In this document: piece after piece, positions 33,227-45,879 of the stretch | Numbering within the stretch: position 1 is the first letter of the stretch | Layout of the letters: every line of letters begins with the position of its first letter | From: Ktedonobacteria bacterium brp13 | Lineage (GTDB): Bacteria > Chloroflexota > Ktedonobacteria > Ktedonobacterales > Ktedonobacteraceae | Direction: 5' to 3' | NCBI GenBank assembly: GCA_015099395.1 | Contig: AP024096.1 | Location: forward strand, 3,782,001 to 3,846,000 | DNA: 64,000 nt | Translations under genes and position numbers: made by a program | The notes under the pieces: model-generated | Seen by the model: only the letters and a program-made list of their open reading frames with translations | Told to the model about the DNA's origin: nothing | The model's database searches: none

Positions 33227-35941
33227 ATGATAGAAAAACAATTATACGCACAACGCAGGAAAAAACATTCTTATGTTCTGCTCATGCTTGTCATGATGGC
33301 TCCGCTGCTGATGGGTGCCATATGTACGCTTGGGACGCCAACTACCATTATTGGTTCCAGTAATATGAATATAAATAGTACCCTTACGGATACTGTGCAT
33401 TTTTCGCAACTCAAAATGCTTGACGCACAGAACGGTTGGGCGACGACTCCGCAGGCGATCCTCAAAACCACCGACGGAGGGAAAACCTGGACTGATCTCA
33501 CTCCTCTGGATTGGGAACCAAAGACTGCCCCCTCCGGGGCCGCCACTACTGTACAAACTATTGTAGCTGCCTCTTTCCTGGATGCAAATCATGCCTGGGT
33601 AGTGGGGACGACGCAGTCTACACAACAATATGTTGATGCCGCGTCAACCGTAACGAACAGTGTGACAACGAAGCCAGATGGCACGGTGACGGTTGACACA
33701 AAAAGTCTCCCTACATTTAGTACAAGCGTCTATGTACGTTCGACGATTGATGGCGGTAAGACGTGGATGACTTCGAACGCACTTACGGCACAAAATCTGT
33801 CTTCGGTCAGCCAACCTGATTTCATCAATGCGCACGAAGGTTGGTTGGAATTGATGCTCTCACAGACCTCCGATAGTAGTTATGTCGGAGATGTCTACCA
33901 TTCTGTTGATGGTGGCGTGACCTGGCAGCAAGAAACCACAACCCTGCCTGCTCCTACTGGTGGGGGAACTTTTTGTCAAAACTGTTTTTCTGTGAATGGA
34001 TTGGCTGCATCTGTCGCGTCTGCTTTGACACAGCATGCACAGAGTGCTACAGGAGCAGGAAGCGTGACGGGACAGATTGCGTCGAAGAATCAGTTGGCCG
34101 GGATGACCATCATGCCAGACTGTGTGCAGGGGAACGGCGGTAACGGTGGACTCCTGCCCCCATGTGCGGCTGCGGTGGATTCTGCCGTGCAGGGGTGTAC
34201 CGTGCCAGGCATAACGAATTATGTGGGTCTGGCTACGGCTACTGCGCAGCAATCGAGCTTACCGTCACTGTTCGGCGCGAGGCTCTGGTTGAGCGAGCAA
34301 CTGAGCGAAAATGCACTCTGGGAGCCCACGTCTTTCATCGGCGTACCAGGTGGAGCCCCGGGACAGAGTGGTAATTCCATCGTTGCTACAGCACCCCCGA
34401 TCGCGTTTCCGGACGGTACGGGTATCTTGCCTGTTCAGTTGCAGGGTAACCCCCAGAGCATTACTACCAGCAATTTATACTTGCACCTGTACAGCATCAA
34501 AGTCGTCGATAAGCTAAGCGACTATCAGGTCAGTGATCTGAGCCCTACCAGTACATTTCTGGCACCCCTGGTGAATGGGCAGCACGTTTTGTCTGCTCCC
34601 GATATGCAGCATGTCTTTGTCTCCGGTCAGGAGTCGGCAAGTACGAATACCTGGCATCTCTACGAATTTACCGGCGGGAAATGGGTCACGTTGACCAGCC
34701 AGACTGATGCGACCATGCCCGCAGCGTCTTCCGGGGATCAGTCCACATTTCTTAATGGTGGGTTATCCAATCTTGATTTCATTAGCGACACAGAAGGGTG
34801 GGCGACGAATGGTTCAACTCTGTACCATATAACGATTGCGAACAATGTCGCTACCTGGTCTCAGGTGTATCCTGATCCACGAGCGAGTACGAAGAATACT
34901 GGTTCCGTGACCATAACGGTGCCGCGGGCAGCTGGCGCTACCATACCATCACCGACGAATCCACCGCCGTGTGCTGTCCCTCCTGCTGGTGGCGGTACGA
35001 ATCCTGGTCCAACGAATTCTGGTCCAACGAATTCTGGTCCAACGAATTCGGGAAAGCATTTCCTTACAGGCTACTGGCAGGACTTTACGAATGGTGCCAC
35101 ACCAGTGAGTCTGAGCGCGGTCAACTCCAACTACACCATTATCGCAGTGGCTTTTGCCAACGCCGACCCGAATAACCCCGGTGGAGTAACTTTCAGCATC
35201 GACTCCGGTCTGTCGTCAGCCCTCGGCGGCTATAGCACTTCGCAGTTCATCAGTGACATCAAAACCCTCCACTCACAGGGTAAGAAGGTCATCATTTCGG
35301 TGGGCGGCCAGAATGGCACCATCAGTGTCTCGGACGCGACCAGCGCGGCCAACTTTGCCAATAGCGTCTACAGCTTGATGAAGCAGTACGGCTTCGATGG
35401 TGTAGATATCGATCTGGAGAATGGCTTGAATGTAACCTATATGACCAGCGCACTCCAGCAGTTGTCCTCGAAAGCTGGTTCCAACTTGATTATTACGCTG
35501 GCTCCCCAGACGATCGATATGCAATCAACCAGCAGCGACTACTTCCAGTTGGCGCTGAATATCAAGAGCATCCTGACCATTGTCAACACCCAGTACTACA
35601 ACTCCGGCAGCATGAGCGGGTGTGACGGGAAGGTGTACGCGGAAGGCACGGAGAATTTCCTCACGGCTCTGGCCTGCATCCAACTCCAGGGTGGATTGCG
35701 TCCCAACCAGGTCGGCCTCGGGTTACCCGCATCAGCCTCGGCGGCTGGTGGAGGCTATATGTCGTCCTCGGTGGTGAACGCCGCCCTCGACTGCCTGGCA
35801 ACTGGCAGCAACTGTGGCTCGTTCGTGCCACCTTCCCACTGGAGCATCGGTGGAGCGATGGGCTGGGCGATCAACTGGGATGCCTCGAATAGCTACAATT
35901 TCGCGAACACGGTCGGGCCCCATCTCAGTTCTCTGCCGTAA
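33227..35941 (+). CDS. Secreted BNR-propeller / GH18 chitinase fusion
   Basis: 904 residues. A signal-peptide-like N-terminus (YVLLMLVMMAPLLMGAICTL) is followed by BNR/Asp-box repeats over about 45-570: ILKTTDGGKTWTDLT, RSTIDGGKTWMTS and YHSVDGGVTWQQE. A Pro/Gly linker with NSGPT repeats (about 585-605; 15-bp DNA repeats) leads to a GH18 domain at about 605-904. That domain has KVIISVGGQNG and the catalytic DGVDIDLENG, where the final Glu is the acid. It likely hydrolyses extracellular chitin or related GlcNAc polymers, with the propeller binding substrate or cell wall. Start ATG 33227 has a weak AAGG upstream. Confidence 0.85.
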   Translation: MIEKQLYAQRRKKHSYVLLMLVMMAPLLMGAICTLGTPTTIIGSSNMNINSTLTDTVHFSQLKMLDAQNGWATTPQAILKTTDGGKTWTDLTPLDWEPKTAPSGAATTVQTIVAASFLDANHAWVVGTTQSTQQYVDAASTVTNSVTTKPDGTVTVDTKSLPTFSTSVYVRSTIDGGKTWMTSNALTAQNLSSVSQPDFINAHEGWLELMLSQTSDSSYVGDVYHSVDGGVTWQQETTTLPAPTGGGTFCQNCFSVNGLAASVASALTQHAQSATGAGSVTGQIASKNQLAGMTIMPDCVQGNGGNGGLLPPCAAAVDSAVQGCTVPGITNYVGLATATAQQSSLPSLFGARLWLSEQLSENALWEPTSFIGVPGGAPGQSGNSIVATAPPIAFPDGTGILPVQLQGNPQSITTSNLYLHLYSIKVVDKLSDYQVSDLSPTSTFLAPLVNGQHVLSAPDMQHVFVSGQESASTNTWHLYEFTGGKWVTLTSQTDATMPAASSGDQSTFLNGGLSNLDFISDTEGWATNGSTLYHITIANNVATWSQVYPDPRASTKNTGSVTITVPRAAGATIPSPTNPPPCAVPPAGGGTNPGPTNSGPTNSGPTNSGKHFLTGYWQDFTNGATPVSLSAVNSNYTIIAVAFANADPNNPGGVTFSIDSGLSSALGGYSTSQFISDIKTLHSQGKKVIISVGGQNGTISVSDATSAANFANSVYSLMKQYGFDGVDIDLENGLNVTYMTSALQQLSSKAGSNLIITLAPQTIDMQSTSSDYFQLALNIKSILTIVNTQYYNSGSMSGCDGKVYAEGTENFLTALACIQLQGGLRPNQVGLGLPASASAAGGGYMSSSVVNAALDCLATGSNCGSFVPPSHWSIGGAMGWAINWDASNSYNFANTVGPHLSSLP

Positions 35942-38159: not shown

Positions 38160-38219
38160 GATCATTGTCCCTGGCCTCTATCTGGACAAGACATGTGGTC
38201 GTGCCAGAAGCATCCCTCA

Positions 38220-38906
38220 TCATCGAATGGTGGGAAGGCCTAGCATTGCGGAATTGAATGGAGCCCGGTGCAACGGCGTCAAAACCCCCGAGTCCATCTC
38301 ACAGACCGTATTACAGAGCACTTCAATGTCCTGAGCATTGTGACTGGCGAGAATAATCGTCTTTCCCTGATTCCGCAGACTCAGTATCAACTCTCGCATG
38401 TGTTGCACACCCTGTTTATCCAACCCATTAAATGGCTCATCTAAAATAAGCAGACGAGGATTCTCCATGATCGCTTGCGCGATTCCCAGGCGTTGACGCA
38501 TCCCAAGAGAGTATTTATTCACCGGCTTTTTCATATTGGGGTCCAGTCCCACTCGTTTCATGGTCTCACCAATGGTCACGTCATCAATCTTTCTCCGTAG
38601 AGAGGCCAATATCTTCAAATTTTTCTTCCCCGTCAGTCCTGGTAGGAAGCCGGGTGTCTCGATGATGAGGCCCAGGCTTTCCGGGAAGTCGACATCTTTG
38701 CCGACCTGTTTATTGTGAACGAACACCTTGCCCCTTGTTGGGAGCAGGAATCCACAGATACACTTCATCAGCACGGTTTTGCCGCTCCCGTTATTGCCAA
38801 CAATGCCATGAATTTTACCTTCCTCAAAGTCATGGCAAACATCACGGAGCACATGTTCTGGTCCAAAATCTTTGCTGACGTGATCTATGTGAATGGCGAT
38901 ATTCAT
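38220..38906 (-). CDS. ABC transporter ATP-binding protein
   Basis: 228 residues from ATG 38906, with GAGGG upstream; the frame is open further upstream but there it overlaps the permease gene. It has Walker A GIVGNNGSGKTVLMK, Q-loop LGLIIETPGFLPG, signature KYSLGMRQRLGIAQAI, Walker B LLILDEPFNGLD and an H-loop Ser/His in ILASHNAQD. It is the last gene of an operon with two ABC-2-type permeases. Such three-gene exporters, beside a two-component system, often handle peptides, lantibiotics or envelope stress. The substrate is unknown. Confidence 0.88.
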   Translation of the reverse strand: MNIAIHIDHVSKDFGPEHVLRDVCHDFEEGKIHGIVGNNGSGKTVLMKCICGFLLPTRGKVFVHNKQVGKDVDFPESLGLIIETPGFLPGLTGKKNLKILASLRRKIDDVTIGETMKRVGLDPNMKKPVNKYSLGMRQRLGIAQAIMENPRLLILDEPFNGLDKQGVQHMRELILSLRNQGKTIILASHNAQDIEVLCNTVCEMDSGVLTPLHRAPFNSAMLGLPTIR

Positions 38907-38910
38907 ATAC

Positions 38911-39807
38911 TTAGCCCTCTGTTCCAATGAAATGAAAATTATAGGTACGAATGGTATAAAAAGCGATGCCATAGCAGAGAAGGATTAACAGCGCAAAAAT
39001 CGCGCAGCTTTGCCAGATACGAGGCAGGAGATCATAGCCAAAATTGTGCATGCCATAGGTGGCCTGATTGAGTGGAGAGACCCAGCCCACAATCACATTG
39101 GCTTTATACATCAGCTGAGCGGGCCACCCAAACAGTGTTTGAATGAGTTGTGGATTGAGCAGGAAGCCGTACAGACTGAAGATGAACACACCCGCAACAC
39201 TCCAGATCTGCCCCTTGAGAATGTTGAGCACCAGCATAAGAAACGCAATCAGCAGAGCATAGAGGAGCATCAAGACAAAGATCGTTCCCATACAGGCATA
39301 GGGCGTTGACATCTCCAACGTTTTTACCGTCACAGTGAGTCCGGTGGCCTGCCCTGCGGCGGAGTAACCAAGGATCGCCGCCGTCTCACTCCAGATATTG
39401 CCAACAAACGCATCATTTTGACAGAGCAGCATCGTTGCCCCAAGGATAAAGGCCAGGTAGACCCCGGTGGCAAGAAGAATATAGAGCGTCTGGCCCAGTA
39501 GCCATGTTTTCCGGTCAATGCGTACCAGGTAAAAGGGGACAGCTGCATTGAGAAAGGGAATGTCTGCAAACAGCAACACCAACAAGAGCGAGGAAAGCAA
39601 AATAGAATTGCTATCACTAAAGGTCCAGACGAAGGCCTCTACCAGTTGCATCGTTGTGTGATAACTCTCCGCAAACTGGATCACTTTGTTGGTGAGCAAA
39701 AAGCACAGAATGAAGGACAGGGCGAACGTAATGAGAATGCGTGGATTTTTATACCACCCGTGGAAATTATAGAGAGCCACGAGCACAACTTTTCTGATGT
39801 TATCCAT
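38911..39807 (-). CDS. ABC-2-type permease, subunit 1
   Basis: 298 residues from ATG 39807, after AAAAAGGAAA. About six helices: RILITFALSFILCFLLT, SILLSSLLLVLLFADIPFL, LLATGVYLAFILGATMLL, FVLMLLYALLIAFLMLVL, WSVAGVFIFSLYGFLL and CAIFALLILLCYGIAFY. The start overlaps the end of the second permease by eight bases, and the stop precedes the ATPase start by a few bases, so translation is coupled. It forms the membrane part of the exporter. No conserved substrate motif is visible. Confidence 0.8.
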   Translation of the reverse strand: MDNIRKVVLVALYNFHGWYKNPRILITFALSFILCFLLTNKVIQFAESYHTTMQLVEAFVWTFSDSNSILLSSLLLVLLFADIPFLNAAVPFYLVRIDRKTWLLGQTLYILLATGVYLAFILGATMLLCQNDAFVGNIWSETAAILGYSAAGQATGLTVTVKTLEMSTPYACMGTIFVLMLLYALLIAFLMLVLNILKGQIWSVAGVFIFSLYGFLLNPQLIQTLFGWPAQLMYKANVIVGWVSPLNQATYGMHNFGYDLLPRIWQSCAIFALLILLCYGIAFYTIRTYNFHFIGTEG

Positions 39808-40561
39808 TACCGAGTTTCCTTTTTGCAAAGATGGCGAAGATGATGCTGAAGCCGATCATGAACGCCGACTGCAGCAGGACCAGTCCCCAGTCACCCAGAA
39901 TCCAGAAATGGGAAGGATTCAGCCATTCCCTGGGATAGAGGTAATACCATGCACCAAAGTAGCGATCGTGAATGATAATGAGGATATAGTAAAAAACGAA
40001 TGGTGCCGCATAGGCCATATAGCGACTCTTTGTGATGCTTGCCAATGTAAAGCCGACCAGTGACCAGAGCATGCCCGAACAGAGGAACAAAGCCGCTTTG
40101 CCAAGGATCATCGCAGAGTATGTCGCGATGATTCCTCCATCGAACGGGTCTTCCAATGGTGTGAGCCCCAGCGTGGAGAGAATATAGGCCAGAAGGATGC
40201 CAATAAAGAGCACGAGCCCTCCTGAAATGGCACAGGCAAGAAGCTTCCCCAGAATATAGGCATTGACCCCACAACGCGGCAAAAATTGTTTGATAAAGCC
40301 GCTCTGAATATCATCCACAAACACGGGCGTAAAGGGGAGTGTGCAAAGAATAGGCATCGCGAACATCACCATATCCGATGACAGCGCATTCCCGATCAGC
40401 TCTACATGGTAGCCTGGTGGCAATTGAGGACCGTTTTCAAACGTTGTGTAAAGACTTGCTGCGGAAGCAAGAACAATCACTATCGCCATGCCAAACGCAC
40501 CAGCAAGAAATCCTCTGGAGAGAACAGCACGTTGAATATCGGAACGAATAGTAGAGAGCAT
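39800..40561 (-). CDS. ABC-2-type permease, subunit 2
   Basis: 253 residues from ATG 40561, six bases after AAGGAAGG (the ATG at 40582 would place the site inside the gene). Six helices: FLAGAFGMAIVIVLASAASL, MVMFAMPILCTLPFTPVF, LLACAISGGLVLFIGILLAY, ALFLCSGMLWSLVGFTLA, YAAPFVFYYILIIIHD and VLLQSAFMIGFSIIFAIF. It is the first gene of the exporter operon, divergent from the response regulator, with a minus-strand TACAA repeat pair upstream at 40630-40646. Confidence 0.8.
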   Translation of the reverse strand: MLSTIRSDIQRAVLSRGFLAGAFGMAIVIVLASAASLYTTFENGPQLPPGYHVELIGNALSSDMVMFAMPILCTLPFTPVFVDDIQSGFIKQFLPRCGVNAYILGKLLACAISGGLVLFIGILLAYILSTLGLTPLEDPFDGGIIATYSAMILGKAALFLCSGMLWSLVGFTLASITKSRYMAYAAPFVFYYILIIIHDRYFGAWYYLYPREWLNPSHFWILGDWGLVLLQSAFMIGFSIIFAIFAKRKLGNG

Positions 40562-40629
40562 TGGAAACCTTCCTTGTTTCATTTGTTGTTTTCAACACTA
40601 GGATTATTTTGCTTCATGGCTGCATAGAA

Positions 40630-40646
40630 GTTGTATCGTAGTTGTA
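40630..40646 (-). promoter_or_regulatory. Direct-repeat box upstream of the ABC operon
   Basis: On the minus strand TACAAC occurs twice with an 11-base period (starting at 40646 and 40635). It faces the exporter genes and resembles the plus-strand boxes at 40683 and 43710. Confidence 0.5.
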
Positions 40647-40682
40647 ATATTTAAGACATTTTTCTGCAAAATCAACTGTGTA

Positions 40683-40715
40683 TACAACTTTGTTACAATT
40701 ATGGTACATAATGAG
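40683..40715 (+). promoter_or_regulatory. Direct-repeat box and promoter of the two-component operon
   Basis: TACAACTTTGT, TACAATTATGG and TACATAATGAG follow each other with an exact 11-base period (T at 40683, 40694, 40705). CATAAT at 40707-40712 could be the -10 element, which would place the first two repeats over the -35 region, as in PhoB-type activation. Confidence 0.55.
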
Positions 40716-40786
40716 ACGGTACGGCTGATGGATGCCGCTGTTATGGCAGCATCAAGCGGCGACATCCATGTGAAGGATAGACAGAT

Positions 40787-41437
40787 ATGAAAGTACTTAT
40801 TGCTGAAGATGATACTGCGATCAATGATTTGATCCGCATGAATTTACATGATACAGGGTTTAGCTGCACCTGTGTCTTTGATGGTCTGGCCGCTGCCGAC
40901 CTGCTGGAGCGGGATAGCTTTGATCTGGTCTTGCTCGATATTATGTTGCCCCATGTGAATGGGTATGAAATTCTGGAGTATATTCGTCCGCTTGGTATTC
41001 CGGTGATCATTATTACTGCTAGAAGTTCGGTCACCGACAAAGTAAAGGGATTGAACCTGGGCGCGGATGATTATATCGTCAAACCCTTTGCCATTGTAGA
41101 GCTTACCGCCAGAATCGAGGCGATACTCCGGCGCTACAACAAAGACCAGAGGATGCTGGTAATAGAGGATCTGGAGATCAACACCGAATCGCGCTTAGTC
41201 ACGAAGCGTGGCATACCGGTAGAACTGACCCTGAAAGAATATGAATTGCTGCTCATGCTGGTGCGCAATAAGAATATCGCACTCTTTCGCGAGACACTTT
41301 TTGAACGGATCTGGGATGCAAATTTTATGGGGCATACGCGAACGCTGGATTTGCATATCCAACGGCTTCGTCGAAAGCTGGGTTGGGAAGACAAAATTAA
41401 GACCGTGTACAAGATTGGCTATCGATTGGAAGTGTAA
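40787..41437 (+). CDS. OmpR-family response regulator
   Basis: 216 residues. Receiver domain 1-115 has the acidic pair in AEDD, phosphoacceptor Asp51 in LVLLDIMLP, Thr in IITARS and Lys in DDYIVKPF. The winged-helix output domain covers about 125-215, including LTLKEYELLLMLVRNKN and HTRTLDLHIQRLRRKLG. Start ATG 40787 follows GAAGGATAG. The stop is two bases before the kinase start. The 11-bp-spaced repeats upstream suit OmpR-type tandem binding, so autoregulation is likely. Confidence 0.93.
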   Translation: MKVLIAEDDTAINDLIRMNLHDTGFSCTCVFDGLAAADLLERDSFDLVLLDIMLPHVNGYEILEYIRPLGIPVIIITARSSVTDKVKGLNLGADDYIVKPFAIVELTARIEAILRRYNKDQRMLVIEDLEINTESRLVTKRGIPVELTLKEYELLLMLVRNKNIALFRETLFERIWDANFMGHTRTLDLHIQRLRRKLGWEDKIKTVYKIGYRLEV

Positions 41438-41439
41438 GG

Positions 41440-42888
41440 ATGCGGTTCTCGCTCAAAATCTTTCTCTGTATCGTGGTCGCAGTCGCGCTTTCCTTTGCTA
41501 TCGGTGGCTACTTGCTGATCTCCTCAAATTTCACTGCCGCCAAAGACAGGGAGGTGAATCTCGCTATCGATGAGCACCTCTCGCTGCAGTATATGCTTGA
41601 ATCCGCGCTTGTCACGCAAGAGTTGCAGGGGCAAGCCGTGACCGATGCGACGGTACGCACTGCCGCACAGGGCATCGCCACCAGTCTGCTGCAGAGCGGG
41701 CAAGGAGGAAGAGTCATTATTGTCTATAACACTGGTGGTACAGAGATCTATCCAGATGCGGGCAAGCAAGCGCCAGATCGTACGAAACTGACCTCCTTGC
41801 ATGCTGGACAAGTGATGTATGCGCTTTCGCGTAATGGAAAGATCTCTACCCTCTTTGTGACCGGATTGTTGACCTATGGCTCCGAGAAGTTGTATCTCAG
41901 CTATAGCCAGGATATCAGCGAGGTGTTTGCGCAAAGGGATGCGCAGGTGCATACCTTTATCTTCTATCAGGGTGTCAATATCCTGATGAGTGCGGTTTTG
42001 GCTTTTTTGATCTCATGGCTGCTAACCCGTCCTGTGCGCCAGCTCACCCAGACCAGCCGCAGAATTGCCGCAGGAGACTACAAGAGGCGTGCAGATATCC
42101 GCTCATCCGATGAAATTGGAGAACTGGCACAAAGTTTTAATCTGATGGCTGCCTCAGTCGAGGAGAAGATCAATGCGTTAGAGCAATCCGCCCGCATCAA
42201 GGATGATTTTATCGCCAATTTCACGCATGAACTCAAGACGCCGATGACCTCCATCGTTGGGTACGCCGACATGCTGCGCTCTCGCCAGCTGGACCCGGAA
42301 ACGGTCTTCAAAGCCGCCAATTATATTTACAACGAAGCCAATCGTCTGGAATCACTTTCACTGAAAATGTTGAATCTGGTGATCCTGGAACTGCATGACT
42401 TCACCTTTGTGCCGATCGCTGCTGATGAGCTGGTTGGATACATTGTTCGAGCCGCGACTCCCTCTTTTGTGCAGAGTGGTATGATCATCAAGGCATCGGC
42501 GCAGGAAGGGTGGGTGCAGGTTGAACCTGACCTCATGAAGACATTGCTGCTCAATCTTATGGACAATGCACGAAAAGCATCGAGTGCTGGCAGCGCCGTT
42601 GAGGTGCGCGGGAGCCGGGATGGTGAGCACTACACCTTCAGCGTGACCGATCATGGACGAGGCATACCGCAAGCAGAACTGGGCAAGATCACCGAGGCCT
42701 TTTATATGGTTGATACGTCCCGCTCCAGAGCACAGAATGGTGCGGGACTGGGATTGAGCATCGCCAGCAAAATTGCCACGTTGCATCATACCACGTTGCA
42801 ATTTGTGAGCAGCATAGGAATTGGCACCAGTGTCAGCATCAGTTTGCCCTGTTTCCATATACAAGAGGAGTATGAGGATGAAGAATAG
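41440..42888 (+). CDS. Sensor histidine kinase with HAMP domain
   Basis: 482 residues. It has a first membrane helix at 5-28 (FLCIVVAVALSFAIGGYLLI), an extracytoplasmic sensor region to about 177 with no recognised fold, and a second helix VNILMSAVLAFLISWLL. The HAMP domain reads RPVRQLTQTSRRIAAGDYKR. The H-box FIANFTHELKTPMTSIVGY carries the phosphorylated His. The ATPase has an N-box LLLNLMDNARKAS and G-boxes DHGRGIP and GAGLGLSIA. It partners the response regulator at 40787. The gene end overlaps the next gene by 11 bases. Confidence 0.92.
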   Translation: MRFSLKIFLCIVVAVALSFAIGGYLLISSNFTAAKDREVNLAIDEHLSLQYMLESALVTQELQGQAVTDATVRTAAQGIATSLLQSGQGGRVIIVYNTGGTEIYPDAGKQAPDRTKLTSLHAGQVMYALSRNGKISTLFVTGLLTYGSEKLYLSYSQDISEVFAQRDAQVHTFIFYQGVNILMSAVLAFLISWLLTRPVRQLTQTSRRIAAGDYKRRADIRSSDEIGELAQSFNLMAASVEEKINALEQSARIKDDFIANFTHELKTPMTSIVGYADMLRSRQLDPETVFKAANYIYNEANRLESLSLKMLNLVILELHDFTFVPIAADELVGYIVRAATPSFVQSGMIIKASAQEGWVQVEPDLMKTLLLNLMDNARKASSAGSAVEVRGSRDGEHYTFSVTDHGRGIPQAELGKITEAFYMVDTSRSRAQNGAGLGLSIASKIATLHHTTLQFVSSIGIGTSVSISLPCFHIQEEYEDEE

Positions 42889-43639
42889 GATCTTCTGGTA
42901 TAGTGTCGTGGCCTTCGTGGTCAGTCTCCTGGTGACTGCTAGCGTGCTCATGCCTGGCGTATTGCTTAGCAGAACAGAGGATAGTATCCTGAGTTCTTCC
43001 TCTACGGTGAGTACAGGCATCTCTTTTTCTCAACAACAGAACGCCACTGCCGCCAGCAAAACGCCAACACCATCGGTGGTGTCCGTGGCACAAATGACCA
43101 GAAGCGTGCAATTGTATGAGCAAGGTGTCCAGAAAAGTGTGCTCTCCACAGAGTTTAGTAATGGCAGTATGGATATGAAAGAGGCGGTCGATGCCTGTGT
43201 TCAGCAAATAACCACGCTTTTGCAGAAGGGCGCGCTTGTGCCACTTGCTCAGTTTCCTCAGGCATATACTGTAAGTGCAGAACAGAGAACCATCATGGGT
43301 GATAGCGGGAATCCCGCACTGCAATACTGGGATATTGCCTTCCTTTCGCTCTCTAATCAGACGAAAATGGATGTCTCGTTAGATGCTCAAACAGGAATGT
43401 TTCTGTCCATACGTATAAGTGTGGAGAACGCCACCGGTATAGTTGACCTGATGAGCACCGCTGAAGCCATCGCCCAGGAGATGCATATGTCTGGGCGTCT
43501 GCTTTTATTGGACGAACAAGGTATTCCCCAAACTGCATCATGGAAATTTAATAATGCAGCGGTGCTCATGCAATTATCTGTTGATGAAAATACATCTTCT
43601 ATCAGTTTATTGATGGAAATGCATGTGTCACCGGCCTGA
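42878..43639 (+). CDS. Membrane-anchored protein of the two-component operon, unknown
   Basis: 253 residues from ATG 42878, seven bases after AGAGGAG inside the kinase gene; ATG 42872 is too close to that site. A single N-terminal helix (FWYSVVAFVVSLLVTASVLM) is followed by a Ser/Thr-rich linker and an extracytoplasmic domain of about 170 residues with VDACVQQITTLLQKGAL, YWDIAFLSLSNQTKMDVSLD and a strand pattern faintly like PepSY/YycI-type domains. The overlap with the kinase gene suggests an accessory sensor or a regulator of the kinase. Family uncertain. Confidence 0.75.
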   Translation: MKNRIFWYSVVAFVVSLLVTASVLMPGVLLSRTEDSILSSSSTVSTGISFSQQQNATAASKTPTPSVVSVAQMTRSVQLYEQGVQKSVLSTEFSNGSMDMKEAVDACVQQITTLLQKGALVPLAQFPQAYTVSAEQRTIMGDSGNPALQYWDIAFLSLSNQTKMDVSLDAQTGMFLSIRISVENATGIVDLMSTAEAIAQEMHMSGRLLLLDEQGIPQTASWKFNNAAVLMQLSVDENTSSISLLMEMHVSPA

Positions 43640-43670
43640 TAACAGGTCCTCTGAAAGGAAGCCTGTTATC
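43638..43670 (+). terminator. Hairpin at the end of the two-component operon
   Basis: GATAACAGG / CCTGTTATC, 9-bp stem overlapping the stop codon. A T-run (AATTTTTTC) comes about 12 bases later, so it is an imperfect terminator. Confidence 0.45.
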
Positions 43671-43709
43671 CTCTCAAAATTTTTTCATGTATATGGAGAG
43701 AAAAACGTT

Positions 43710-43745
43710 TACAATCTGGATACAATTTGTGTACCTGCATGATAC
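43710..43745 (+). promoter_or_regulatory. Direct-repeat box upstream of the lipoprotein gene
   Basis: TACAATCTGGA, TACAATTTGTG, TACCTGCATGA and TACAAG start at 43710, 43721, 43732 and 43743: four steps of exactly 11 bases. It is the same motif as at 40683 and 40630, pointing to control by the adjacent response regulator. The third and fourth units would overlap the -10 region. Confidence 0.55.
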
Positions 43746-43850
43746 AAGAGCCCGTTAGACTCTCTCTTGACGTTGAGATACCCTCGCAAAAACACAGGCA
43801 ACAATTCCTTGTCTCTCAACGTCACCTATGGGTTAAAGGGCTCTTTTTTT
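43746..43850 (+). ncRNA. Structured 5' leader, possible attenuator
   Basis: Two nested helices can form: outer AAGAGCCC (43746-43753) with GGGCTCTT (43838-43845), extended inward by a few pairs, and inner TGACGTTGAGA (43768-43778) with its perfect complement (43814-43824). The outer helix runs directly into a T-run ending at 43850, 25 bases before the lipoprotein start codon. This resembles a cis-regulatory RNA or attenuator, but it matches no riboswitch I know and has large loops for a terminator. Confidence 0.4.
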
Positions 43851-43874
43851 ATACCAGAAGATAGGAACAAAACG

Positions 43875-45362
43875 ATGAAACATGATGATCCTCATAGACA
43901 GGTACACGATAAGGACGTTTTTCTCCGATCGACGCTGGCGACAAAGGTTCTCCTGTTGACGATGTTGCTCACCGTCATCGGGTCACTGGTCGCCTGTCAG
44001 AGCACACCGACAACGCCTCCGGTGACCGGCAAACAGCAGGATATCAACTCGATAGTGAAGAGTAATACGCAGAATACCAATCTGTTGCAGGGTGTTCCTC
44101 AGACGCTGACAGATCATCAGACGCAGGGAGCGGTCACCTTGAACATCAACGCCTCGGTGCAACTCCCTCACACCTCGAAGATCCCGGTGGTGACGACGCA
44201 GCCAACTTGTTTTACCCAGGATACGGTCAACAAAATTATCACTACCCTCATGCCGGGAAAGCAATTATATGACAATGCAGTTGATTGGTCCAAAGTGGAC
44301 TATCAAAAGCTGGCCGCGCTTATACAGGCGCTCCAACTGCCAGGTGCTCAGGGAAACAAAGAGATCACAACACAATCAGGCAACGTAAGTGCTGCCCTCC
44401 TTGCCGCCAGGAACAGTAATTTCTCGAAATTCTCTAATCCGACGAGTATATTGTCAAGGGCATCCTTGGCACCAGACACACGACAAAGAACGCCAATGAC
44501 TGGACAGTTGCAACGGCTTGATGAGAGTGACTTTGGGAGTGGAGCAAAGGTCATAAAAGGATTTCATGGACATATGCTCTCGGTGTATGCCGACTCTGGC
44601 AAAGGGTACGATACGACTCTGGACATTCAGGCGTCTGATGATGCCAAAAATTGTAGTGTAAATTTTGCGAACCATGACATTCCCGATGTCTATAATTATA
44701 CTGATCTGACCGGTCCGGCCAGAGGAATGAGCATGTCGCTGGATCAGGCCAAAGCCCTGGCGCAACAGACATTACAGGCCGTGGGAGCCACAGATCTGAG
44801 GCTTACCCAGGTACAACTGGGGACCTTAATCCCGCACTCGGCCAGTGATAATCCCAATACGATGAATCAAGCCTATGGCATGTGGTTTACCCGTGACGTT
44901 GCTGGCGTCCCCACGACGGTCGATTTGACTAATCCAAACCAGAACGCCTATCAGCAAACGTATCCCTATGAGCGGTTGTTTATGCTGGTGAATGATACCG
45001 GGGTAATTGAGTTTTCCTGGACATCTCCGATGCGTACCACCGGGACAATCTCTTCGAATGCCCAGATTCTGTCGTTTCAGGATGCGATGAACCAATTTAA
45101 GCAGCAATTCTTCATCCACTATGCCCAAAACGATACAAGCAAGGGGAATACGGCCTATACCATCAAGCGGATCACTCTGGGCATGATGCGGGTACAGAAC
45201 AAGAATCAAGCCAATACCTACACGATGGTCCCGGTCTGGGATTTCTATGGGACCGGTGGTCCTTCACCCAGCAACCCACTGCTGATCGACCATAGTATGG
45301 AAAGCTTTTTAACCATGAATGCGATCGATGGTTCCGTCATTGATCGGACGCTAGGATATTAA
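43875..45362 (+). CDS. Lipoprotein, DUF6034-like (tentative)
   Basis: 495 residues from ATG 43875, with AGGAAC upstream. Residues 1-40 are charged, then a helix VLLLTMLLTVIGSLVACQS ends in a lipobox LVAC, so the protein is probably lipidated at that Cys. The mature part contains MSMSLDQAKALAQQTLQAVG, YAMWF-like YGMWFTRDVAGVP, YPYERLFMLVNDTGVIEFSW, VPVWDFYGTG and FLTMNAIDGSVIDRTLGY. The last two patterns recall DUF6034 lipoproteins of Firmicutes, from memory. It is preceded by the 11-bp repeat box and the structured leader. It may be an envelope target of the adjacent two-component system. Confidence 0.75.
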   Translation: MKHDDPHRQVHDKDVFLRSTLATKVLLLTMLLTVIGSLVACQSTPTTPPVTGKQQDINSIVKSNTQNTNLLQGVPQTLTDHQTQGAVTLNINASVQLPHTSKIPVVTTQPTCFTQDTVNKIITTLMPGKQLYDNAVDWSKVDYQKLAALIQALQLPGAQGNKEITTQSGNVSAALLAARNSNFSKFSNPTSILSRASLAPDTRQRTPMTGQLQRLDESDFGSGAKVIKGFHGHMLSVYADSGKGYDTTLDIQASDDAKNCSVNFANHDIPDVYNYTDLTGPARGMSMSLDQAKALAQQTLQAVGATDLRLTQVQLGTLIPHSASDNPNTMNQAYGMWFTRDVAGVPTTVDLTNPNQNAYQQTYPYERLFMLVNDTGVIEFSWTSPMRTTGTISSNAQILSFQDAMNQFKQQFFIHYAQNDTSKGNTAYTIKRITLGMMRVQNKNQANTYTMVPVWDFYGTGGPSPSNPLLIDHSMESFLTMNAIDGSVIDRTLGY

Positions 45363-45379
45363 TTTATATGCTCTACGCT

Positions 45380-45430
45380 GTTCTTTGTAGTGCAGTAGTG
45401 CAGCGTTTGCACAACTGCACTACAAAGAAC
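45380..45430 (+). terminator. 16-bp hairpin after the lipoprotein gene
   Basis: GTTCTTTGTAGTGCAG and its exact complement at 45415-45430, with a 19-base loop. No T-run follows. Confidence 0.6.
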
Positions 45431-45879
45431 CCTGTCACAAGGAGCCTTCCGCTCCCCCTCTGCGTTGACTTTCAACAACATTGGATTATTCTGGACACTG
45501 GCTGCTGACGGGTGGCAATATCTAGCAAATTGAGACCTTGCCGACTATCACATGGTATTAGAACGACTCCAAAACATTATAGGACAAACACGTGAGATCG
45601 CAGAGCCCACGGGTTGCACAACGAGATGCATATTTCTCTAAAATGGCTCTACAGGCTCATTTAAAACGTGCGCCTACGAATCAGTAATACCTCTGCTGTA
45701 TGAAGGAAAGAGATCAACGAACCTTTTCCATTCCAGGGAGGCACATTTCTTCTCAGTTTGCCAGTTTCCCGCTCTTCTTGTTCAGTTATGCAACCTCGTT
45801 GCGCATCACGTGGGTGTTGAAAACATTTATAATGAGCTATTTTTTATTTTTTATTTTTTATTGTGAAAGGTGCAAATAT
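45431..45879. other. Intergenic region, 450 bases
   Basis: No recognisable gene. An AT-only stretch (45838-45861) directly precedes the ribosome binding site of the next gene. The frame of that gene is open back to 45700 but lacks a site there. Confidence 0.25.

Follow-up and report, generated by a model that had tools for sequence, protein, structure and literature searches.

A candidate two-component regulon joining an ABC exporter and a DUF6034 lipoprotein through 11-bp direct repeats in a Ktedonobacteria genome

Results

The DNA analyzed here is a 64-kb stretch (64,000 nucleotides, nt) of the Ktedonobacteria bacterium brp13 genome (contig AP024096.1, positions 3,782,001 to 3,846,000), hereafter the window. 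It holds a seven-gene cassette for an ABC exporter, an OmpR/PhoB-type response regulator (RR), a sensor kinase, an accessory protein and a lipoprotein of the DUF6034 family. A direct repeat with a step of exactly 11 bases faces three of these genes: those of permease B (start 40582, minus strand), the RR (start 40787, plus strand) and the lipoprotein (ATG at 43875, plus strand). The genes are as follows.

38220 to 38906, minus strand: ABC ATPase, LanF/CprA-like (PF00005, E 5.1e-29)
38911 to 39810, minus strand: ABC permease A, six hydrophobic segments by hydropathy; homologues lie beside DUF6034 genes in Clostridia
39800 to 40582, minus strand: ABC permease B, five hydrophobic segments at the cut-off used; homologues lie beside DUF6034 genes in Clostridia
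40787 to 41437, plus strand: OmpR/PhoB-type RR, 216 amino acids (PF00072, 91.5 bits; PF00486, 76.2 bits)
41440 to 42888, plus strand: membrane sensor histidine kinase with two hydrophobic segments, HAMP, HisKA and HATPase
42878 to 43639, plus strand: accessory protein of an unnamed family, with one N-terminal hydrophobic segment and a presumed outer domain
43875 to 45362, plus strand: DUF6034 lipoprotein (PF19499, E 5.6e-59) with a lipobox-like LVAC, seen by eye

The RR has the receiver and Trans_reg_C domains of the OmpR/PhoB type, both over cut-off. The exporter combines one ATPase with two different permeases, and for the feature of six helices per permease we counted six and five hydrophobic segments, numbers that depend on the hydropathy cut-off. 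Permease A has no match in Pfam or NCBIfam. The best NCBIfam match of the ATPase is the lantibiotic protection ATPase TIGR03740, at 182.7 bits. The lipoprotein belongs to DUF6034, with 200.7 bits against a curated cut-off of 27 and an alignment spanning profile positions 4-481 of 481; no lantibiotic immunity family in Pfam or NCBIfam matches it, and the DUF6034 profile found only hits of E 0.19 and 0.47 in the PDB. The accessory protein likewise lacks a Pfam or NCBIfam match and is present in 3 of 101 genomes, its own included. Clostridia operons carry proteins at its position. Because these align poorly with it (13-21% identity) and a three-sequence profile of the window-type protein did not find them, we claim a shared position for them and not homology.

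The repeat, in the form TACAAYNNNNNTACAAY, matches the window exactly three times, at 40630-40646 (minus strand), 40683-40699 (plus strand) and 43710-43726 (plus strand), the three places where a preliminary description of this DNA had put it. At most one mismatch gives five matches, compared to a mean of 0.74 and a largest count of 3 in 100 shuffles. The whole genome, one contig of 8.88 Mb, has 10 exact matches of TACAAY-N5-TACAAY and 1 of the reversed control pattern. When the flanking W and G positions are added (WTACAAYNNNGWTACAAY), four exact matches are left, three of which are the cassette sites. The genome scan proposed in the preliminary description thus found the repeat uncommon at unrelated loci. 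Across 47 genomes (this one and 46 relatives) there are 14 exact WTACAAYNNNGWTACAAY matches, 8 in three cassettes and 6 elsewhere, and 5 of the reversed control. With at most one mismatch, matches outside the cassette number 12, 8 and 7 in genomes G000, G008 and G025, versus 11, 16 and 12 for the controls. Outside the cassettes, pattern matches in the 47 genomes are at about control level.

The repeat units and the predicted promoters around them are arranged as follows.

40595 to 40647, minus strand: exporter promoter; strong units TTACAAC (40647-40641) and ATACAAC (40636-40630)
40625 to 40619 and 40614 to 40608, minus strand: degenerate in-register units of the exporter promoter, ATGCAGC and AAGCAAA
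40600 to 40595, minus strand: -10-like TAGTGT of the exporter promoter
40682 to 40712, plus strand: RR promoter; units ATACAAC (40682-40688) and TTACAAT (40693-40699), -10 element CATAAT (40707-40712)
43709 to 43761, plus strand: lipoprotein promoter; units 43709-43715, 43720-43726, 43731-43737 (degenerate) and 43742-43748
43756 to 43761, plus strand: -10 element TAGACT of the lipoprotein promoter

One register describes these predicted promoters: autoregulatory promoters have two units and target promoters four, and the -10 element begins 7 nt past the last of them. In a set of 11 RR promoters, from three cassettes and eight Clostridia, the mean -10 score is highest (4.63) at offset 7 from the two-unit site, and at other offsets the next value is 2.81 (mean 1.87, sd 0.53). 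Target promoters were taken as those of the exporter, the lipoprotein or, in other genomes, the next transcription unit (at L047 the downstream gene was not identified). They have units at 0, 11, 22 (degenerate) and 33, then TANNNT 7 nt after unit four. Of 14 target promoters, 11 have TANNNT in this four-unit register, and the three exceptions are all sites of locus L054. With those left out the count is 11 of 11, versus a mean of 0.12 at the other offsets. Six of these rows are cassette promoters from close relatives; keeping a single row for each kind of promoter, together with five other genomes, gives 7 of 7. Two of the L054 sites have, by eye, a fifth unit followed by a -10 at 7 nt, and the third has TACGAT at 8 nt.

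The units themselves are kept in the same register. Among the five Clostridia and Bacillus targets, ACA occurs at offset 0 in 5/5, at 11 in 4/5, at 33 in 5/5 and at 9 in 3/5. All six cassette targets have ACA at 0 and 11, and the shorter CA also at 33. A TTGACA-like -35 element at spacings of 16-18 is not apparent, with at most 3 of 6 bases matching in 24 of 25 promoters and 4 in one L054 site.

The preliminary description had counted two units before the exporter, three before the RR operon and four before the lipoprotein. By the register, the four lipoprotein units are correct, the third RR unit (TACATAAT) is instead the predicted -10 element, and the exporter keeps a four-unit register in which two strong units are followed by two weak ones. 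We also considered the fourth lipoprotein unit as a -10 element, and dropped this as the register across orthologues and Clostridia puts the -10 seven nt beyond it. The seven other TACAAY-N5-TACAAY sites in the genome include one within a long coding frame (L006) and one between trp-like genes (L007, labelled by eye). All seven lack TANNNT at both the two-unit and the four-unit offset, the nearest being TAAAAC in L009, and on that ground they were rejected as regulon members.

Among 61 genomes, RR orthologues occur at 93% identity (G025) and 89% (G008), both in other genera of the same family. The remaining RR matches are at most 44% identical, among the matches listed. When window positions 25001-60000 were compared by BLASTN (E 1e-10) with 19 kb around each of the two orthologues, similarity was confined to 38171-45442 (89%) and 38195-45365 (81%), with no other place matching. 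TBLASTX also returned weak pieces (23-45% identity) from the left flank of the window, among the five matches listed. All three repeat sites are kept in both orthologous cassettes. By these comparisons the seven genes and three predicted promoters occur together as a unit with sharp ends (38.2-45.4 kb). The sharp ends and the patchy distribution suggest horizontal movement, and we consider it probable that the block is a self-contained, horizontally exchanged envelope-defence cassette. In the G025 cassette (L042, 8707-8845) about 127 nt are inserted into the RR leader. The inverted ends of this insert, AACTATTCAG/CTGAATAGTT, were identified by eye; it is absent from the other two cassettes and has a single copy in the G025 genome.

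Beyond the cassettes, the box tracks part of the RR family. A matrix built from the nine cassette sites was run over at most 200 bp of DNA before each of 79 RR homologues (80 loci, one dropped for too little upstream DNA). For homologues at least 47% identical, a box was found upstream of 8/16 at a shuffle p of at most 0.05 and of 7/16 at 0.01; below 47% identity the corresponding counts were 2/63 and 0/63. The eight box-bearing closer homologues come from Lachnospiraceae, a Christensenella and unplaced Clostridia. Operons of the type RR, kinase and accessory-type protein are found at L044, L045, L047, L048, L057 and L059, the last without a box. Loci that lack exporter genes (L254, L257, L259), and L241, which is cut by a contig end, have boxes near the RR.

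DUF6034 genes carry the box as well. In G106, the uncultured Clostridia genome of L054, DUF6034 matches number 49, though some are fragments of the same gene. WTACAACTNNNWTACAAC with at most one mismatch matches this genome 18 times, versus 1 for the control. The 18 matches form 13 regions, and in nine of these a DUF6034 match follows 75-150 bp downstream. The other four lie upstream of an RR, a NAGPA-domain lipoprotein, a membrane-like protein and a secreted SH3-like protein (the last two assigned by eye).

Independently of the box, gene order was surveyed in a set of 145 genomes, G101 and its relatives. DUF6034 matches occur in 24 of them, over the cut-off in 22. We took 20 DUF6034 loci from 17 of the 24 genomes and counted their neighbours by hand. 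An RR of the window profile is present at 13/20, one or more of the three ABC genes at 14/20, and both at 8/20; L248 is the only locus with neither. At L255 gene picking chose an overlapping open reading frame over the DUF6034 frame, whose presence is taken from the survey of the 145 genomes. Six loci (L206, L242, L243, L244, L246, L253) have the order RR, kinase, DUF6034, permease B, permease A, ATPase in one block, and L245 has the full gene set in a different order. The preliminary description had assigned the exporter, sensor, accessory protein and lipoprotein to one two-component regulon, and that proposal gains support from the three sites kept with the cassette in two other genera, from the boxes before half of the closer RR homologues, and from gene order, which independently ties the RR, the kinase, DUF6034 and the exporter.

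Further side observations concern these relatives. DUF6034 genes form tandem arrays behind RR-kinase operons, with six genes at L205, nine at L257 and seven at L259. At L206 (3526-5776), the exporter genes are followed by a 488-amino-acid protein with CARDB/NEW3-type domain matches and a 272-amino-acid protein without matches. L242-L247 have reading frames of similar length behind the ATPase, and the window cassette has no such genes.

A long hairpin lies between the lipoprotein promoter and its ATG.

43746 to 43851, plus strand: long hairpin and U run; outer arms 43746-43753 and 43838-43845, inner 11-bp stem 43768-43778 and 43814-43824

This three-stem hairpin has a z of -5.8, and the orthologous stretches in L042 and L043 fold in a similar way, at z -2.6 and -3.7. 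The outer arm on the 5′ side of the window hairpin (43746-43753) shares bases with unit four of the lipoprotein promoter and precedes the predicted start, so the full stem would form only in transcripts from upstream. A transcript from the lipoprotein promoter would start near the inner stem. At L044 a long hairpin likewise spans the -10 (z -5.2), with weaker folding (z -2.9 to -1.4) at L048, L049, L055 and L047. RNAalifold on the three sequences gave an unfavourable covariation term (+0.89), with both sides changed in 2/31 pairs; for this reason we used the separate folds and make no claim of covariation. The lipoprotein leader is present only once in the genome, and an Rfam search of 36-49.5 kb returned three matches, all below the gathering score. 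In the RR leader, a possible hairpin at 40728-40770 is not clearly above shuffles (z -1.3; 24/200 shuffles as good).

Discussion

The most likely reading of the sequence is that the RR, once phosphorylated, acts as an activator at three promoters without a -35 element, turning on the exporter and the lipoprotein against envelope-active peptides. The kinase, perhaps with the accessory protein, would sense a compound acting on the envelope, probably a peptide antibiotic, and pass the signal on by phosphorylating the RR. RR dimers would then bind the head-to-tail 11-bp units, placed where the -35 element and the upstream part of the spacer would be, and recruit RNA polymerase to the -10 element, 7 nt past the last unit. 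PhoB works in this way, recruiting RNA polymerase from a tandem operator that stands in place of the -35, and the pho box has the same geometry of direct repeats with an 11-bp step. Two units would drive the RR-kinase-accessory operon in a positive feedback, and four-unit registers the exporter and the lipoprotein. The exporter would act like CprABC or LanFEG, and the lipoprotein could plausibly shield the membrane or bind the peptide.

Binding to head-to-tail 11-bp repeats is a trait of OmpR/PhoB regulators; the repeats here have the matching step and are conserved together with the RR, which would be the candidate protein to bind them. The OmpR-family regulator RR_1586 is reported to bind direct repeats of an 11-nt unit (PMC6222199), and together with the Cpr-type gene set this is why we favour an activator of exporter and lipoprotein. 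The present operator differs from PhoB/OmpR tandem operators in its own unit, WTACAAY, in its gap of 7 nt (sometimes 8) to the -10, and in its unit numbers, two at autoregulated promoters and four (as many as six by eye) at targets.

The cassette resembles the CprABCK-R module of Clostridioides difficile and NisRK-NisFEG-NisI in its OmpR-type RR, membrane kinase, ATPase with two permeases and adjoining lipoprotein. It differs from them in that the lipoprotein is a DUF6034 protein, an extra accessory protein is present, and the exporter, regulator and lipoprotein each have their own predicted promoter. The ATPase also stays below the curated TIGR03740 cut-off, so we claim similar working and not membership in Cpr/LanFEG. 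cprABC-type operons contain an RR, a kinase, an ATPase and two permeases, and a lipoprotein beside cprABC is reported not to be induced by lantibiotics (PMC5786555); here, by contrast, the lipoprotein carries the operator.

Several results count against this activator model. The ATPase reaches 182.7 bits where the TIGR03740 cut-off is 309.75, and no lantibiotic synthesis gene was found among the 13 window proteins scanned with Pfam, the rest of the genome not having been searched. Strict TANNNT occurs at offset 7 in only 5/11 RR promoters (at offset 8 in 2/11), a low count because forms such as CATAAT and CAAAAT miss the pattern, and the exporter promoters have weak -10 hexamers (TAGTGT, TAGTAT, TATTGT). 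Half of the closer RR homologues (8/16) have no box upstream, and no over-threshold box was found at 18/30 scanned DUF6034 loci (10/20 of those from G106). Finally, all seven full operons (L206, L242-L246, L253) lack an over-threshold box before the RR; L206, with an RR 45% identical to that of the window, and L243 have one elsewhere in the locus. The RRs of these seven operons may therefore use another operator, and the link to the box is valid for only part of the RR family.

A different signal for the same regulon is possible, though we think it doubtful: the cue could be general cell-wall stress or something self-made or polysaccharide-related, with the exporter moving a lipid or wall precursor. 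Clostridia genes behind tandem boxes include C39-like peptidases (L044, L048), a polysaccharide deacetylase (L049) and a NAGPA-domain lipoprotein (L187), and the closest PDB sequences to the ATPase are ABCA lipid transporters. However, the best family match of the ATPase is the lantibiotic-protection subfamily, and an ATPase with two separate permeases, a two-component system and a lipoprotein is the Cpr/LanFEG set.

It is unlikely that the RR instead binds the boxes as a repressor that is released on phosphorylation. The units do span the -35 position and spacer, so that they would overlap the promoter core, and RR_1586 of C. difficile is reported to have repressed its reporters (PMC6222199). 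Yet the poor match to TTGACA noted above suggests that the units replace the -35, as those of an activator would. That the repeats are AT-rich coincidences, or are bound by some other regulator, is very improbable: the genome does hold seven further exact matches, one between trp-like genes, but the reversed control gives only 1, none of the seven has TANNNT at either offset, and the cassette sites follow the cassette and part of the RR family.

Under the activator model, DUF6034, a family of unknown function that none of the papers searched mentions as DUF6034 or PF19499, gains a candidate regulator, an operator sequence and an exporter partner. The promoters are predicted at single-base resolution, and as the link spans Clostridia and the lineage of the window, the operator rule can be tested in relatives. 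It is tempting to speculate, with considerable reserve, that DUF6034 lipoproteins form an unrecognised class of defence or decoy proteins at the cell surface, which has expanded repeatedly and is controlled by a dedicated RR-kinase branch through arrays of 11-bp units. The order and strength of the promoters would then be set by how many units an array has, two at the regulator and four to six at effectors. The window lipoprotein promoter would be nested in the terminator of the upstream operon, with the full terminator forming from read-through only.

To the left of the cassette, at 33227-35941, the window also encodes a large protein with a C-terminal GH18 (chitinase-type) domain, and an MFS transporter gene lies between this protein and the cassette.

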